From NCBI RefSeq assembly GCF_005843985.1, contig NZ_CP040463.1, positions 918,001 through 982,000 on the forward strand: a DNA stretch of 64,000 nucleotides. Reading direction: 5' to 3'. Position numbers and translations under genes: made by a program. The stretch comes from Caminibacter mediatlanticus TB-2. GTDB taxonomy: Bacteria > Campylobacterota > Campylobacteria > Campylobacterales > Nautiliaceae. Below, in pieces: positions 32,648-63,069 of this stretch (position 1 is its first letter; the number at the start of each line of letters is the position of its first letter). Under the pieces are notes generated by a model that ran no database searches, was not told where the DNA came from, and worked only from the letters and a program-made list of their open reading frames with translations.

Positions 32648-33331
32648 TTGATTTTATATCAACCAAAAAATGGATATTGTTATAATTCTGACACTATGTT
32701 TTTATATGATTTTATAAGTAAACTTAATATAAAAGGGGATGTTTTAGAAGTTGGAGGCGGATGTGGAGTTTTAGGACTTTTAATTAAAAGAGATTTTCCA
32801 AAAATTAATTTAACTATTATAGAAAAACAAAAAGTTATGTATGACTTTACATTGAAAAATAGTAAAGAGAATAATTTAGAAGCTGAGGTTATTAATGCTG
32901 ATTTTTTAGAGTATAAATTTGATAAAAAATTTAGTTTTATAATCTCAAATCCTCCTTTTTATAAAGGCACTTTAAAAAGTGAGAATGAAATAAAAAAAAT
33001 TGCAAGATATGAGGAATATTTGCCTATGGAAGAGTTTTTTAATAAAGTTAACTCTTTATTAGTGGAAAATGGAGAGTTTATTTTTTGTTATGATGCTAAA
33101 AGAATTGATGATATTATAAAAACTCTTCCAAAACCTTTAAAAATTACTGATATGAGGTTTATGTATCCAAGAGTGAATAAAAATGCTTCATTAGTTATGA
33201 TTAGGGCTAAAAGACATGCAAAATCTATGGTTAAAATACATCCTCCATTAATTGGATTTGAAGGTGAAGAGTATTCAAAAGAAGCAAGTGAAATATATAA
33301 AAAAGCTAACACCAAAAGTATAAAACAATGA
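32648..33331 (+). CDS. tRNA1(Val) A37 N6-methyltransferase-like protein
   Basis: A SAM-dependent methyltransferase of the YfiC/TrmN6 type. Motif I is VLEVGGGCGVLGLLI, the acidic loop is IIEKQ, and NPPFYKG is the catalytic N6-adenine motif. The start YQPKNGYCYNSDTMFLYDFI corresponds to the substrate-binding N terminus of that family. Its 227 residues are near the usual length. The start codon is TTG. It overlaps the YkgJ gene by four bases. A similar gene stands in the same order before trpC in Campylobacter as I recall it. Confidence 0.82.
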   Translation: MILYQPKNGYCYNSDTMFLYDFISKLNIKGDVLEVGGGCGVLGLLIKRDFPKINLTIIEKQKVMYDFTLKNSKENNLEAEVINADFLEYKFDKKFSFIISNPPFYKGTLKSENEIKKIARYEEYLPMEEFFNKVNSLLVENGEFIFCYDAKRIDDIIKTLPKPLKITDMRFMYPRVNKNASLVMIRAKRHAKSMVKIHPPLIGFEGEEYSKEASEIYKKANTKSIKQ

Positions 33332-33359
33332 AAAATGGAAAATGTAAAATGGAAAATAA
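33325..33359 (+). repeat. Heptanucleotide repeat array in a gene start
   Basis: Units ACAATGA, AAAATGG, AAAATGT, AAAATGG and AAAATAA run in strict seven-base phase across the start of the YkgJ gene. They supply both candidate ATG codons, and no other Shine-Dalgarno sequence is visible upstream. Confidence 0.65.
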
Positions 33360-33738
33360 AAATATAATTTGTAAAGATGGATTTGAGTTTTGTTTTGATA
33401 GTGATGCTTGTAAAAGTTGTGAAGGGAGTTGTTGTATTGGGGAGAGTGGTTATATTTGGGTTAGTTTTGAGGAGATAAAAAATATTTCTAAATTTTTAAA
33501 TATTGATGAAAATATTTTTATTGATAAATTTTTAATAAAAGTAGGGTATAAATATTCTATAAAAGAAAGACCTTATAAAGATGGGTATGCGTGTATTTTT
33601 TTTGAAAATGGATGCAGTATTTATCCTGTTAGGCCAACTCAATGTAGAACATTTCCTTTTTGGGATTATTTTAAAAATAATATTGAAGAATTAAAAAAAG
33701 AGTGTCCAGGAATAATAGAAATTGAGAATGGAGAATGA
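33328..33738 (+). CDS. YkgJ-family cysteine cluster protein
   Basis: A 136-residue protein with the metal-chelating cysteine cluster of the YkgJ family: CKSCEGSCCIGESGYIWV, then ACIFFENGCSIYPVRPTQCRTFPFW and KKECPG. The bound metal and role are unknown. The first residues (MKNGKCKMENK) are encoded by the heptamer repeat at 33325-33359 and are probably not conserved. Translation could also start at the in-frame ATG 33349. The last residues EIENGE and the stop are likewise encoded by a second array. Confidence 0.85.
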   Translation: MKNGKCKMENKNIICKDGFEFCFDSDACKSCEGSCCIGESGYIWVSFEEIKNISKFLNIDENIFIDKFLIKVGYKYSIKERPYKDGYACIFFENGCSIYPVRPTQCRTFPFWDYFKNNIEELKKECPGIIEIENGE

Positions 33739-37222: not shown

Positions 37223-37254
37223 GAATGGAAAATTGACAATGGAAAATGAAAAGG
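37223..37254 (+). repeat. Dispersed heptanucleotide repeat array
   Basis: GAATGGAAAATTGACAATGG followed by AAAATGAAAAGG occupies the short gap between convergent flgH and hemW. The units are of the same seven-base family as the other arrays. Confidence 0.6.
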
Positions 37255-37280
37255 AAGTTAGTTAGTATTGGAAATAAAAA

Positions 37281-38405
37281 TTAATCAAGGATATAAGAAG
37301 TTATTGCATCAGCAAGTAAAAAGTCTAAAGAATAAATTCTATTTTCTTTTTTATATAATTTATTTTCTTTAATTAAATGTTTGACTCTTGTTTTTTCTTT
37401 ATTATTTAAAATATTTTCTTCAAATCCGATTATTGACCTAAGCCCTAAAAAAATTTTTTCTTTTTTTATATCTTCATCAGTTAACATTTCATATTTATAT
37501 TTGCAAGGATTTTTTAAATATTCATAAACATCATTTTGAGTATAATATCTAAAAGATAGTAAATTTATAGACTGCTTATTAGAAATTTGTTTTCTTAATT
37601 CTTCATTCTCCATTTTCCATTCTCCATTCTCCATTTTTTTAAACCCAACAGCCCCAGCTCCAATTCCTATATATTCATTTAATTTCCAATATCCTAAATT
37701 GTGAATACAAGGTTTTCCAAAATTTGATATTTCATATTGATTGAATTTTTCTTTTATTTTATTAATAAACCAAATTTCAAGCTCTTCGTTTTCTTTTCTT
37801 TTTGAAAAATCACCTTCCCATTTAGTATTTTCTTCTATCATTAAAGAATAAGCGCTTATGTGAGTTATTGGAAGAGAAAAAGTAGTTTTTAAATCATTTT
37901 CTAAGAGTTTATTGTTATCAAGAGAGGTAGAATAAATCAAATCTAAATTTATATTTTCAAATCCTACTTTTTGAGCATTTTCTATTGAATTTATTGCTTG
38001 AATTGGAGAGTGATTTCTATTTAAAAATTTTAATTTTTCTTCATCAAAACTTTGTACTCCAAAACTTATTCTATTAAATCCTAAATTTTTTATCTCTTTT
38101 AACCATTCAATAGTGACATTTGGATTACATTCAATTGTTAATTCTATTGCATCTTTTAAATTATATTCTAATAATTTCATTAATTTTTCGTAAAAATCTA
38201 TTTTCATTGTTGATGGAGTCCCACCCCCAATAAAAAGAGTTTTAAATTGAATACTCTTATTTATATCATTTTCTATTTGAGTTTTTATTGCATTAAAATA
38301 CTCTTTTTTTAAATGATTTAGGTTTGTATATGAATTAAATGCACAATAATGACATTTACTATCACAAAAAGGTATATGTATATAAAGTAATTTTTCATTT
38401 TTCAT
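37281..38405 (-). CDS. hemW: HemW-type radical SAM haem chaperone
   Basis: A radical SAM protein related to coproporphyrinogen oxidase HemN. The cluster motif is CDSKCHYCAF (C14, C18, C21). Phe after the last cysteine pair position points to HemW, now seen as a haem chaperone, instead of HemN. GGGTPSTM, ECNPNVT and NRISFGVQSFDEEKLKFLNR are typical. At about residues 256-271 an insertion [15 protein letters not shown] is encoded by a heptamer array. The N-terminal MKNEK is encoded by another. The insertion sits between GIGAGAVGF and RYYTQNDVYEYL, which are normally close together. Confidence 0.88.
   Translation of the reverse strand: MKNEKLLYIHIPFCDSKCHYCAFNSYTNLNHLKKEYFNAIKTQIENDINKSIQFKTLFIGGGTPSTMKIDFYEKLMKLLEYNLKDAIELTIECNPNVTIEWLKEIKNLGFNRISFGVQSFDEEKLKFLNRNHSPIQAINSIENAQKVGFENINLDLIYSTSLDNNKLLENDLKTTFSLPITHISAYSLMIEENTKWEGDFSKRKENEELEIWFINKIKEKFNQYEISNFGKPCIHNLGYWKLNEYIGIGAGAVGFKKMENGEWKMENEELRKQISNKQSINLLSFRYYTQNDVYEYLKNPCKYKYEMLTDEDIKKEKIFLGLRSIIGFEENILNNKEKTRVKHLIKENKLYKKENRIYSLDFLLADAITSYILD
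37594..37640 (-). repeat. Heptanucleotide array inside hemW
   Basis: On the coding strand the units ATGGAGA, ATGGAGA, ATGGAAA, ATGGAGA, ATGAAGA and ATTAAGA follow in phase. Three units make 21 bases, so the array encodes a seven-residue motif (MENGEWK) and keeps the hemW frame open. Confidence 0.75.
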
Positions 38406-38426
38406 TTTTAACTTTTTACTTTTTAG
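38388..38426 (-). repeat. Heptanucleotide array at the hemW start
   Basis: On the minus strand AAAAGTA, AAAAGTT, AAAAATG, AAAAATG and AAAAATT units run in seven-base phase through the hemW start codon. No AAGG-type ribosome site precedes that ATG. Confidence 0.6.
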
Positions 38427-38447
38427 TTATAATTTTACAAAAAAAGG
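38419..38447. promoter_or_regulatory. Compact divergent promoter hemW / rppH
   Basis: TATAAT (38428-38433) is the rppH -10 element and AAAAAAAGG (38439-38447) its ribosome site. On the minus strand TAAAAT overlaps it and points to hemW. The 29 bases are identical to 32413-32441 before another gene pair. Confidence 0.6.
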
Positions 38448-60516: not shown

Positions 60517-61889
60517 AAGAAATTAAAAAAGGAGAAAACAAACGCCTTGAATTAAAAGAAAAATTACCATCAAATGAAAAATTAGCAAAAACAATAATAG
60601 CTTTTAGCAATACAAGGGGTGGAAAACTAGTAATAGGAGTAAATGACAATAGAGAAATAGTAGGAGTTGATGAAGATAAAATATTTGAGTATGAAGAAAA
60701 AATAAGCTCAATTATTAATGATTTGTGTTATCCAACAATTTTACCAGAGATTTATGCTCAAAATATTAATGGAAAAGTTGTTTTAGTGGTAGAAGTTTTT
60801 CGCGGTTCACTTCTTCCATATTATCTAAAAAACAAAGGTAAATTAGAAGGAACATATATAAGAGTTGGCTCAACAAATAGACTCGCAGATGAAGTAATGA
60901 TAGCAGAACTTCAAAGACAAAGATTTAATAAAAGTTTTGATGAAGAAGAAAATTTTGATTTTGAACTCGAAAATGTTAATTTAGATATTATTTATAATGA
61001 ATTCGCTAAAATAGGAAAAGTTTGTGATTATGAAAAACTAAAAAATTTAAAACTTATAAAAAGAATAAATGGCAAAGATTTATTGACCAATGCCCTTCTA
61101 ATTACCCTTGGAAAGTTTGATAACATTTCAATTAAGTGTGCAAGATTTAAAGGAATAACAAAAGAGATTTTTATTGATAAAAAAGAGTTTAATGATGATT
61201 TATTTAGTAATTTGCAAAATTCTATTAAATTTTTACAAAATCACTTGGATCTAAATGCAGAGGTTAAAGGTTTACAGCTTAAAGAAGAGCTTGAAATACC
61301 TCTTTTAGCACTTAGAGAAGCTTTAATTAATGCAATTATTCATAGAGACTATTTAAGAAATAGCGATATAAAAGTAGCTATCTATGATGATATAGTAGAA
61401 ATTGTCTCACCCGGTGGATTTCCAAACGGGCTTACAATTGATGAAGTAATGAGTGGAAGAAGTGAAATTAGAAACAAAGTTTTAGCAAATCTCTTTAGAG
61501 AATTAAAATATGTAGAAACTTGGGGAAGTGGAATAGCTAAGATAAAAAATTTATGCGAAGAGAAAAATATAAAGTTTGAAATAAATGAGAGTGGTAATTT
61601 TGTGAGAATTGTATTTCATAGACCAAAAATCAGCGAAAAAGTATCGAATAGTATCGAAAAAGTATCGAATAGTATCGAATTAAATGATAAAGAAAAAAAA
61701 ATAATAAAATTTTTACAAAAAAATGGAAAAATTGTCTCAGAAAATGTAGAAGAACTATTGAATGTTAAAGAAGCAATGGCAAGAAGAATTTTATCTAATA
61801 TGGCAAAAAAAGGTATTTTAGAAAAAATTGGCAAAACAAAAGGAAGCTACTATATTTTAAGCGAAAAGTTAAAAGTTAAAAAAAATTGA
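60504..61889 (+). CDS. AlbA_2/HATPase-type ATP-binding regulator
   Basis: A 461-residue protein of the class once called divergent AAA-4 or Schlafen-like. The N-terminal AlbA_2 nucleic-acid-binding domain reads [18 protein letters not shown], then [18 protein letters not shown] histidine-kinase-like ATPase domain follows with [27 protein letters not shown] and [12 protein letters not shown]. After a linker SIEKVSN repeated twice comes a winged helix ([21 protein letters not shown]). It lies between hsdM and hsdS, overlapping hsdM, so it is expressed with the restriction system. Regulation of that system is inference. Confidence 0.85.
61634..61675 (+). repeat. Two exact 21-bp tandem repeats in the regulator linker
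   Basis: A 21-base unit occurs twice exactly and encodes [15 protein letters not shown] between the ATPase and winged-helix domains. Within it GTATCGAA recurs four times at spacings of 10, 11 and 10 bases. Linker repeats of this kind are common in this protein class. Confidence 0.85.
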
Positions 61890-61914
61890 GAATGGAGAAT
61901 GGAAAATGGAAAAT
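61867..61914 (+). repeat. Heptanucleotide array supplying the hsdS start
   Basis: Units GTTAAAA, GTTAAAA, AAAATTG, AGAATGG, AGAATGG and AAAATGG run in phase from the last codons of the regulator gene into hsdS. GGAG at 61894-61897 stands exactly eight bases before the hsdS ATG, so the array forms the translation start. Confidence 0.75.
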
Positions 61915-63069
61915 TTAATTAAAGAGATAAAAAATTGTAAGATTGAGTGGAGGAAGTTAGGGGAGGTTGCGGAGTTAAAAAGAGGTAGAGTTATTTCTAA
62001 ACAATATTTAGAGGATAGAAAAGGAAAATACCCAGTATATAGTTCTCAAACTGAAAAAAATGGAGAAATAGGTAAAATTGATACATATGATTTCGATGGT
62101 GAATTTGTAAATTGGACTACTGATGGAGCAAATGCAGGGACTATATTTTATAGAAAAGGTAAATTTTCTATTACAAATGTCAGTGGATTAATTATCTTAA
62201 AAAATTATAAGTTATTAACTTATAAATTTTTGTATTATTGGCTTTCAATAGAAGCAAAAAGGCATGTATATAAAGGGATGGGCAATCCTAAATTAATGAG
62301 TAATCAAATGGCTAAAATTACAATTCCTATCCCACCTATTGACATTCAAAAAAAAATAGTTAAAATCCTTGATAGATTTACAGAGCTAACCACAGAGCTA
62401 ACCACAGAGCTAACCCTCAGGAAAAAGCAATACTATTACTACCTAAATAAACTCTTAACTTTTAAAGATGATGAAGTGGAGTGGAGGAAAATATCAGAAA
62501 TATTTAATCTTAAAAACGGATATACGCCAAGTAAATCAAAAAAAGAATATTGGACAAATGGGACAATTCCGTGGTTTAAAATGGAAGATATAAGAATTAA
62601 CGGCAATATTTTAGATAGTTCAATTCAAAAAGTGCATATTAGTGGAATAAAAGGAAAATTGTTTCCAGCAAATTCAATAATAATGGCTACTACGGCAACA
62701 ATAGGAGAGCATGCATTAATTAAAGTAGAACATTTAACAAACCAACAATTTACAAATTTTTCGTTAAAAGATGAATTTAAAAATAAATTAGATATAAAGT
62801 TTGTATATTATTATTTTTTTATTATTGATGAGCAAGCAAAACAAAGTGTAAATAAGTCAAGTTTTCCAAGTGTGCAAATGAATGAATTAAAAAAATGGAA
62901 TTTCCCCATCCCCCCACTCGAAAAACAAAAAGAGATTGTTGCAATTCTTGATAAATTCCATACACTTACAAACTCACTAACTGAGGGTTTGCCTCGTGAG
63001 ATAAACTTGCGACAAAAGCAGTATGAATATTATCGTAATTTATTACTTGATTTTGAAAAGGATGAATAA
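61906..63069 (+). CDS. hsdS: Type I restriction-modification specificity subunit HsdS (PrrB-like)
   Basis: DNA-recognition subunit with two target-recognition domains. The first begins [15 protein letters not shown] and the second [18 protein letters not shown]. Each is followed by a conserved helix ([19 protein letters not shown] and [19 protein letters not shown]). The central spacer contains [11 protein letters not shown] encoded by three 12-bp repeats. The second spacer ends with [16 protein letters not shown]. At 387 residues it is full length. The start is set by a heptamer repeat. The stop overlaps prrC as TAATG. Confidence 0.93.
62380..62415 (+). repeat. Three exact 12-bp repeats in hsdS
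   Basis: ACAGAGCTAACC is repeated three times without change and encodes the TTEL repeats of the central spacer. In EcoR124I and EcoDXXI a 12-bp TAEL-coding repeat in the same place sets the spacer length of the bipartite DNA target. Confidence 0.95.

Follow-up and report, generated by a model that had tools for sequence, protein, structure and literature searches.

How does a tandem repeat of seven nucleotides, a length that is not a multiple of three, come to lie inside the reading frame of a core enzyme? The question is raised by hemW of Caminibacter mediatlanticus TB-2 (complete genome, 1.69 Mb), which was analysed within a window of 64,000 nucleotides (contig NZ_CP040463.1, positions 918,001 to 982,000; coordinates below are those of the window). 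Sequence comparison and a structure model suggest, with a probability of roughly 0.7, that the hemW feature belongs to a family-wide population of heptanucleotide arrays, mainly of the unit AATGGAN, which lie in or at the ends of Nautiliaceae genes and may have arisen from a process with a 7-nt step combined with selection. The interest lies in this population more than in hemW alone.

The heptamer array of hemW and the loop it encodes

The identity of the gene rests on a curated family model (TIGR00539, E=6.1e-85, 285.5 bits against a cut-off of 205.4). The features of the locus are as follows.

37281 to 38405, minus strand: hemW, radical SAM heme chaperone, 374 amino acids (aa) (NCBIfam TIGR00539 and AlphaFold model)
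37594 to 37640, minus strand: heptamer array in hemW, about 6.5 imperfect units of AATGGAR, AATGAAG and AATTAAG, encoding 16 residues
37551 to 37640, minus strand: inserted HemW loop, residues 256-285, 30 aa, in the beta-hairpin turn between strands 253-257 and 284-288
38388 to 38428, minus strand: second heptamer array (AAATGAA-type) over the hemW start, holding the assigned start codon (MKNEKLLYIHIPFC; letters, Tandem Repeats Finder (TRF) and period scan)

The array in hemW, which had been noticed in a first-pass annotation of the sequence, is real and translated in frame with the gene (coding strand AAAAAAATGGAGAATGGAGAATGGAAAATGGAGAATGAAGAATTAAG). At an offset of 7, 32 of its 40 compared positions (0.80) are identical, every other offset from 2 to 13 gives 0.26-0.38, and none of 20,000 mononucleotide shuffles reached the offset-7 value, which identifies a direct tandem repeat of period 7. 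TRF agrees. Within the window this identity is matched only by the array itself and by the array over the hemW start (approximately 38388-38428). When the 64 kb were scanned for strong tracts of periods 4-16, three had period 7, of which two lie at or in hemW, and no strong tract had period 4-6, 8 or 9; Markov controls yielded no strong tracts. Period alone cannot separate an origin in DNA from an origin in the peptide, because the array peptide nearly fixes its DNA: resampling of synonymous codons restored the period in 4182 of 20,000 trials. The two origins can be told apart because the same unit recurs genome-wide and in unrelated genes, as described below.

Comparison with relatives confirmed that the array is part of an in-frame insertion between segments that adjoin in other HemW proteins. 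Four residues separate GAVGF and RYY in all 44 readable non-Nautiliaceae sequences (2/44 read R-L-Y; 28 further loci did not fit the search motif). Ten Nautiliaceae species carry heptameric loops of 13 aa (seven species in four genera), 27, 30 and 34 aa, ten other species have loops of 4-7 aa, and one genome (G020) has a longer loop without heptads. The insertion is thus missing in outgroups and its unit number varies between species. The arithmetic of the first-pass annotation, three heptamers for seven residues, holds for the hemW array, and loop lengths of 18, 39, 81 and 102 nt are spaced by multiples of 21. The loop of C. mediatlanticus TB-2 falls off this ladder because half of it is non-heptameric: the insert measures 90 nt, exceeding its array, and its second half (KQISNKQSINLLSF) shows no heptads. 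The N-termini of HemW in relatives vary in a similar heptamer-repeat style, in both orientations.

A search of the Protein Data Bank (PDB) by sequence matched only the N-terminus, and the loop was therefore placed on the AlphaFold model. The model has a mean pLDDT of 93.6, and its inserted loop, at 61-66, scores lowest in the chain; the top structural match in the PDB is Escherichia coli HemN (1olt, E=2.9e-21). Most probably the array lengthens a beta-hairpin loop with near-neutral effect. A natural low-complexity loop without repeat origin was rejected in view of the empty sites in relatives and the recurrence of the unit in unrelated genes. An assembly artefact is unlikely, given that the HemW loop carries arrays in ten independent assemblies.

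It had been proposed that a change in unit number could switch hemW on or off, i.e. that the gain or loss of one or two heptamers through slippage moves the gene out of frame, a form of phase variation. The unit length, not a multiple of three, and the variation in unit number between species would fit such a switch, and a one-unit change would in principle shift the frame. However, the frame stays open in each of the nine array-bearing orthologues whose gene is intact, 39 nt is the prevailing loop length and most differences come in 21-nt steps, the longest clean run in the hemW array is about three units, and arrays of this family sit in many housekeeping enzymes, which are poor candidates for switching. 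The tenth array-bearing hemW (G016; L043) has several frame breaks, all outside the array; since other G016 genes also show stops, this suggests sequencing errors. We consider phase variation of hemW very improbable.

Arrays across Nautiliaceae genes and genomes

The pattern AATGGANAATGGAN has 42+27 matches (69) in this genome, compared to 0+1 for the reversed control pattern, i.e. the genome contains many dispersed arrays of one unit family. Across the 150 genomes of the order that were searched, Nautiliaceae show the pattern most strongly and the others sporadically, with controls near zero. Statistics were based on strict clusters of at least three units, taken from stretches around the pattern matches and hence comprising arrays that contain AATGGANAATGGA (for genome G015, the listed matches on one contig). 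Single matches that represent ordinary protein motifs were set aside; they lie in genes that we take to encode trigger factor (L130), TypA (L139), LivF (L140), a carboxynorspermidine synthase-like protein (L142) and formate dehydrogenase (L161).

Four genomes yielded 64 strict clusters, of which 31 lie in the interior of open reading frames (ORFs), 19 at ORF starts (within 45 nt), 7 at ends and 7 in intergenic regions. With 57 of 64 in or touching ORFs, location in genes is the rule in Nautiliaceae, and the idea that hemW had captured an otherwise non-coding repeat as protein sequence is not supported. Arrays are not enriched inside genes, since interior coding sequence makes up about 87% of the window, but neither are they excluded from them, in contrast to published accounts of other heptamer repeats, which are mainly intergenic. 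Their orientation is strongly biased towards the coding strand, by 30:1 for interior and 18:1 for start arrays.

In this genome, in-frame arrays were found inside rnhB, murE, lnt, a TrhP-like gene, waaA, dxr, lpxB, uvrC, aroA, a UbiD-family menaquinone decarboxylase gene, queA and recJ (NCBIfam families). Further array-bearing genes are presumably hypF, pabC (two arrays) and mqnA, named by our own reading and without an NCBIfam match at the threshold used. Gaps in comparison with solved homologues coincide with the arrays in QueA, Dxr and RnhB; the arrays of aroA and dxr are short and partly resemble ordinary loops. Three other genomes carry arrays partly at shared genes and places, namely queA, mqnA, aroA, lpxB, murE and rnhB.

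The sequence of the unit indicates how it is tolerated in coding regions. An array reads as (MENGKWK)n on one strand and as (FHFPFSI)n on the opposite one. As 7 and 3 are coprime, the cycle is identical whatever frame is entered. A stop arises on the sense strand only where the free base gives TAA, and gaining or losing three units alters the peptide by exactly seven residues. On the sense strand the peptide is hydrophilic, on the antisense strand hydrophobic. One clear antisense array was found, in lnt, where by our own reading it presumably lies within a membrane segment. A 30:1 strand bias would follow if soluble proteins tolerate the hydrophilic sense peptide, and membrane segments mainly the hydrophobic antisense peptide.

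The start class raises the alternative that the arrays are a selected translation element, serving as portable start regions and as internal starts inside genes. Units like GGAGAATG include GGAG, which resembles a Shine-Dalgarno sequence, and the next unit places an ATG eight bases after it; 18 of the 19 start arrays lie on the sense strand, and in nadE, pabB and the hemW of genome G012 the array provides the start codon itself. On the other hand, half of the arrays are interior, most units read GGAA rather than GGAG, and some recJ, pabC and queA loops are built of heptamers without GGAG or ATG. Furthermore, ORF starts were called mechanically and the class is partly inflated because the arrays themselves create ATG codons. 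Such a function appears quite unlikely as an account of the population.

Turnover of the arrays and their possible origin

Family alignments were made for recJ, lnt, pabC, queA and mqnA, and they reveal turnover in both length and unit, with loops that are filled in some species and empty in others. Between the sister species G009 and G010, the repeat in lnt differs in length by exactly 21 nt. In recJ the loop sits just after DHHTP and holds an AATGGAN array followed by an inverted TTCTCCA array in G010, G012 and G013 (the pair folds with z = -2.8), TTAACAC-type units in G009, a long insert of GGAAGTA/GGGAAGA heptamers in G014 (L177), i.e. a different unit at the same site, and a 9-nt repeat in G016; it is empty in several other species. 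The pabC loop holds AATGGAN in G000 and GTTCCAN-type heptamers in G007, G010 and G013, and that of queA holds AATGGAN- or AGTGAAA-type units. An mqnA array is present in G013 and missing in its sister G007, and also in G009 and G012. On a tree built from three genes minus their inserts, with weak deep branches, the presence of inserts requires at least six changes for hemW, six for recJ and five for lnt; these counts are of changes and carry no direction of gain or loss.

An arrangement of a forward array directly followed by an inverted one, capable of forming a hairpin within coding sequence, was observed in recJ (L176, L184, L172) and at L257:1734-1824, in a gene that we read as thiE.

We propose a mutational process whose intrinsic step is 7 nt, for example slippage or template switching during replication or repair, which would keep creating, lengthening, shortening and replacing arrays; the survivors would be those that keep the frame in a tolerant surface loop. 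The inverted array pairs in recJ would fit template switching. For heptamers generally, slippage tied to polymerase-contacted DNA has been suggested (as cited in PMC4692102).

A mobile origin was considered as well, in which the arrays spread as pieces of an element resembling a miniature inverted-repeat transposable element (MITE), whose left part contains array-type heptads.

Window 19772 and 29835; L125, L128, L129, L134, L135, L146:3069, L148, L151, L154, L156, L158 and L159: MITE-like intergenic repeat of about 115-125 bp with inverted ends TAATACCAATTGA...TTTGGAATTGGTATTA

About 18 intergenic copies carry the heptads AATTGAA AATTGAA AATGGAC AATGGAA, and 16 right ends were found in the genome within three mismatches. 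The arrays in genes, however, lack both the inverted ends and the element's right half, and their units stand in a different order; relatives hold other heptamers at identical sites. A derivation from this element is unlikely.

Several points weigh against a population generated by a 7-nt-step process and selection. We infer the mutational step rather than observe it, and the synonymous-codon control for the hemW array is uninformative as proof of constraint at the DNA level. The tree counts changes only, and an ancestral insertion with many losses may have occurred. One unit dominates across four genera; random slippage would not obviously produce this, and it hints that one specific sequence was dispersed or selected. 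A stronger version, in which a dedicated Nautiliaceae process actively writes and rewrites arrays at permissive loops of core genes, possibly as portable or internal translation starts, would explain both the differing heptamers in sister species and the 30:1 bias; we regard it as rather unlikely.

Related species offer a natural system in which repeat expansion lengthens the loops of core enzymes in steps of seven residues, with empty, short and long alleles among relatives. It makes two questions directly testable, why bacteria favour repeats of period 7 and by what route old proteins acquire new peptide segments, and it demonstrates that heptamer repeats are not intergenic only.

Further repeats of this kind were found elsewhere in the window.

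33327 to 33362, plus strand: AATGGAN-family repeat just upstream of or at an ORF start (TRF, period scan)
37225 to 37256, plus strand: short imperfect heptads between flgH and the end of hemW (ATGGAAAATTGACAATGGAAAATGAAAA; sequence reading)
61884 to 61918, plus strand: AATGGAN-family repeat at the start of an HsdS-like ORF (61906-63069), providing its ATG (period scan and reading)

The HsdS-like ORF had no NCBIfam match at 1e-15 and its name is our own assumption from the sequence. Two other repeats were observed here: a perfect 21-nt tandem repeat of 2.2 copies near the gene (61634-61679), and a perfect 12-nt repeat (ACAGAGCTAACC) of three copies, encoding TELT, inside it (62376-62418), apparently between the two specificity halves. 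Length-variable linkers between specificity halves are known for HsdS.

Comparison with known repeat systems

A literature search, with most subscription literature outside its scope, found no prior report of such repeats in Nautiliaceae, and the genome paper of Nautilia profundicola does not mention them. Four known systems invite comparison. TAACTGA heptamer direct repeats have been described from Beggiatoaceae, Cyanobacteria and Bacteroidetes (MacGregor 2015, PMC4679880). They share with the Nautiliaceae arrays dispersed 7-nt direct repeats in many short arrays and 7-nt length steps between relatives; some also lie in ORFs, and orientation matters since one strand has stops. However, TAACTGA repeats are mostly intergenic, just upstream of starts, and their ORF cases are mainly hypothetical proteins or protein ends, whereas the Nautiliaceae unit is AATGGAN, about half of the arrays (31 of 64 interior, 7 intergenic) lie within conserved enzymes, and no frame of the coding strand contains a stop.

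The heptameric simple sequence repeats (SSRs) of Xanthomonas and Nostoc, GGGNATC (Rehm 2015, PMC4692102, where earlier cyanobacterial heptanucleotides are cited), are likewise over-represented 7-nt repeats with heterogeneous units, for which polymerase slippage was suggested. They differ in being G-rich and studied as intergenic, and the available part of that paper describes no insertion into enzyme loops. Rickettsia palindromic elements, as reviewed in PMC10969869, resemble the arrays in that one family is inserted in frame in many unrelated metabolic genes and yields a recurring peptide, which is also what we found in Nautiliaceae. Those elements are palindromic and about 150 bp long, while the Nautiliaceae arrays are tandem heptamers of variable number and unit; the 90-nt hemW insert shows no fold over its array and is not a palindromic element of about 150 bp; some recJ inserts do hold an inverted array pair. 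Finally, Borg tandem repeats also lie in ORFs and give amino-acid repeats that are often disordered (PMC9879509). Borg units have a length divisible by three, whereas the Nautiliaceae unit of 7 nt does not and is shared genome-wide. The Nautiliaceae arrays therefore share a feature with each of the four systems and lack a defining one of the TAACTGA, Rickettsia and Borg repeats.
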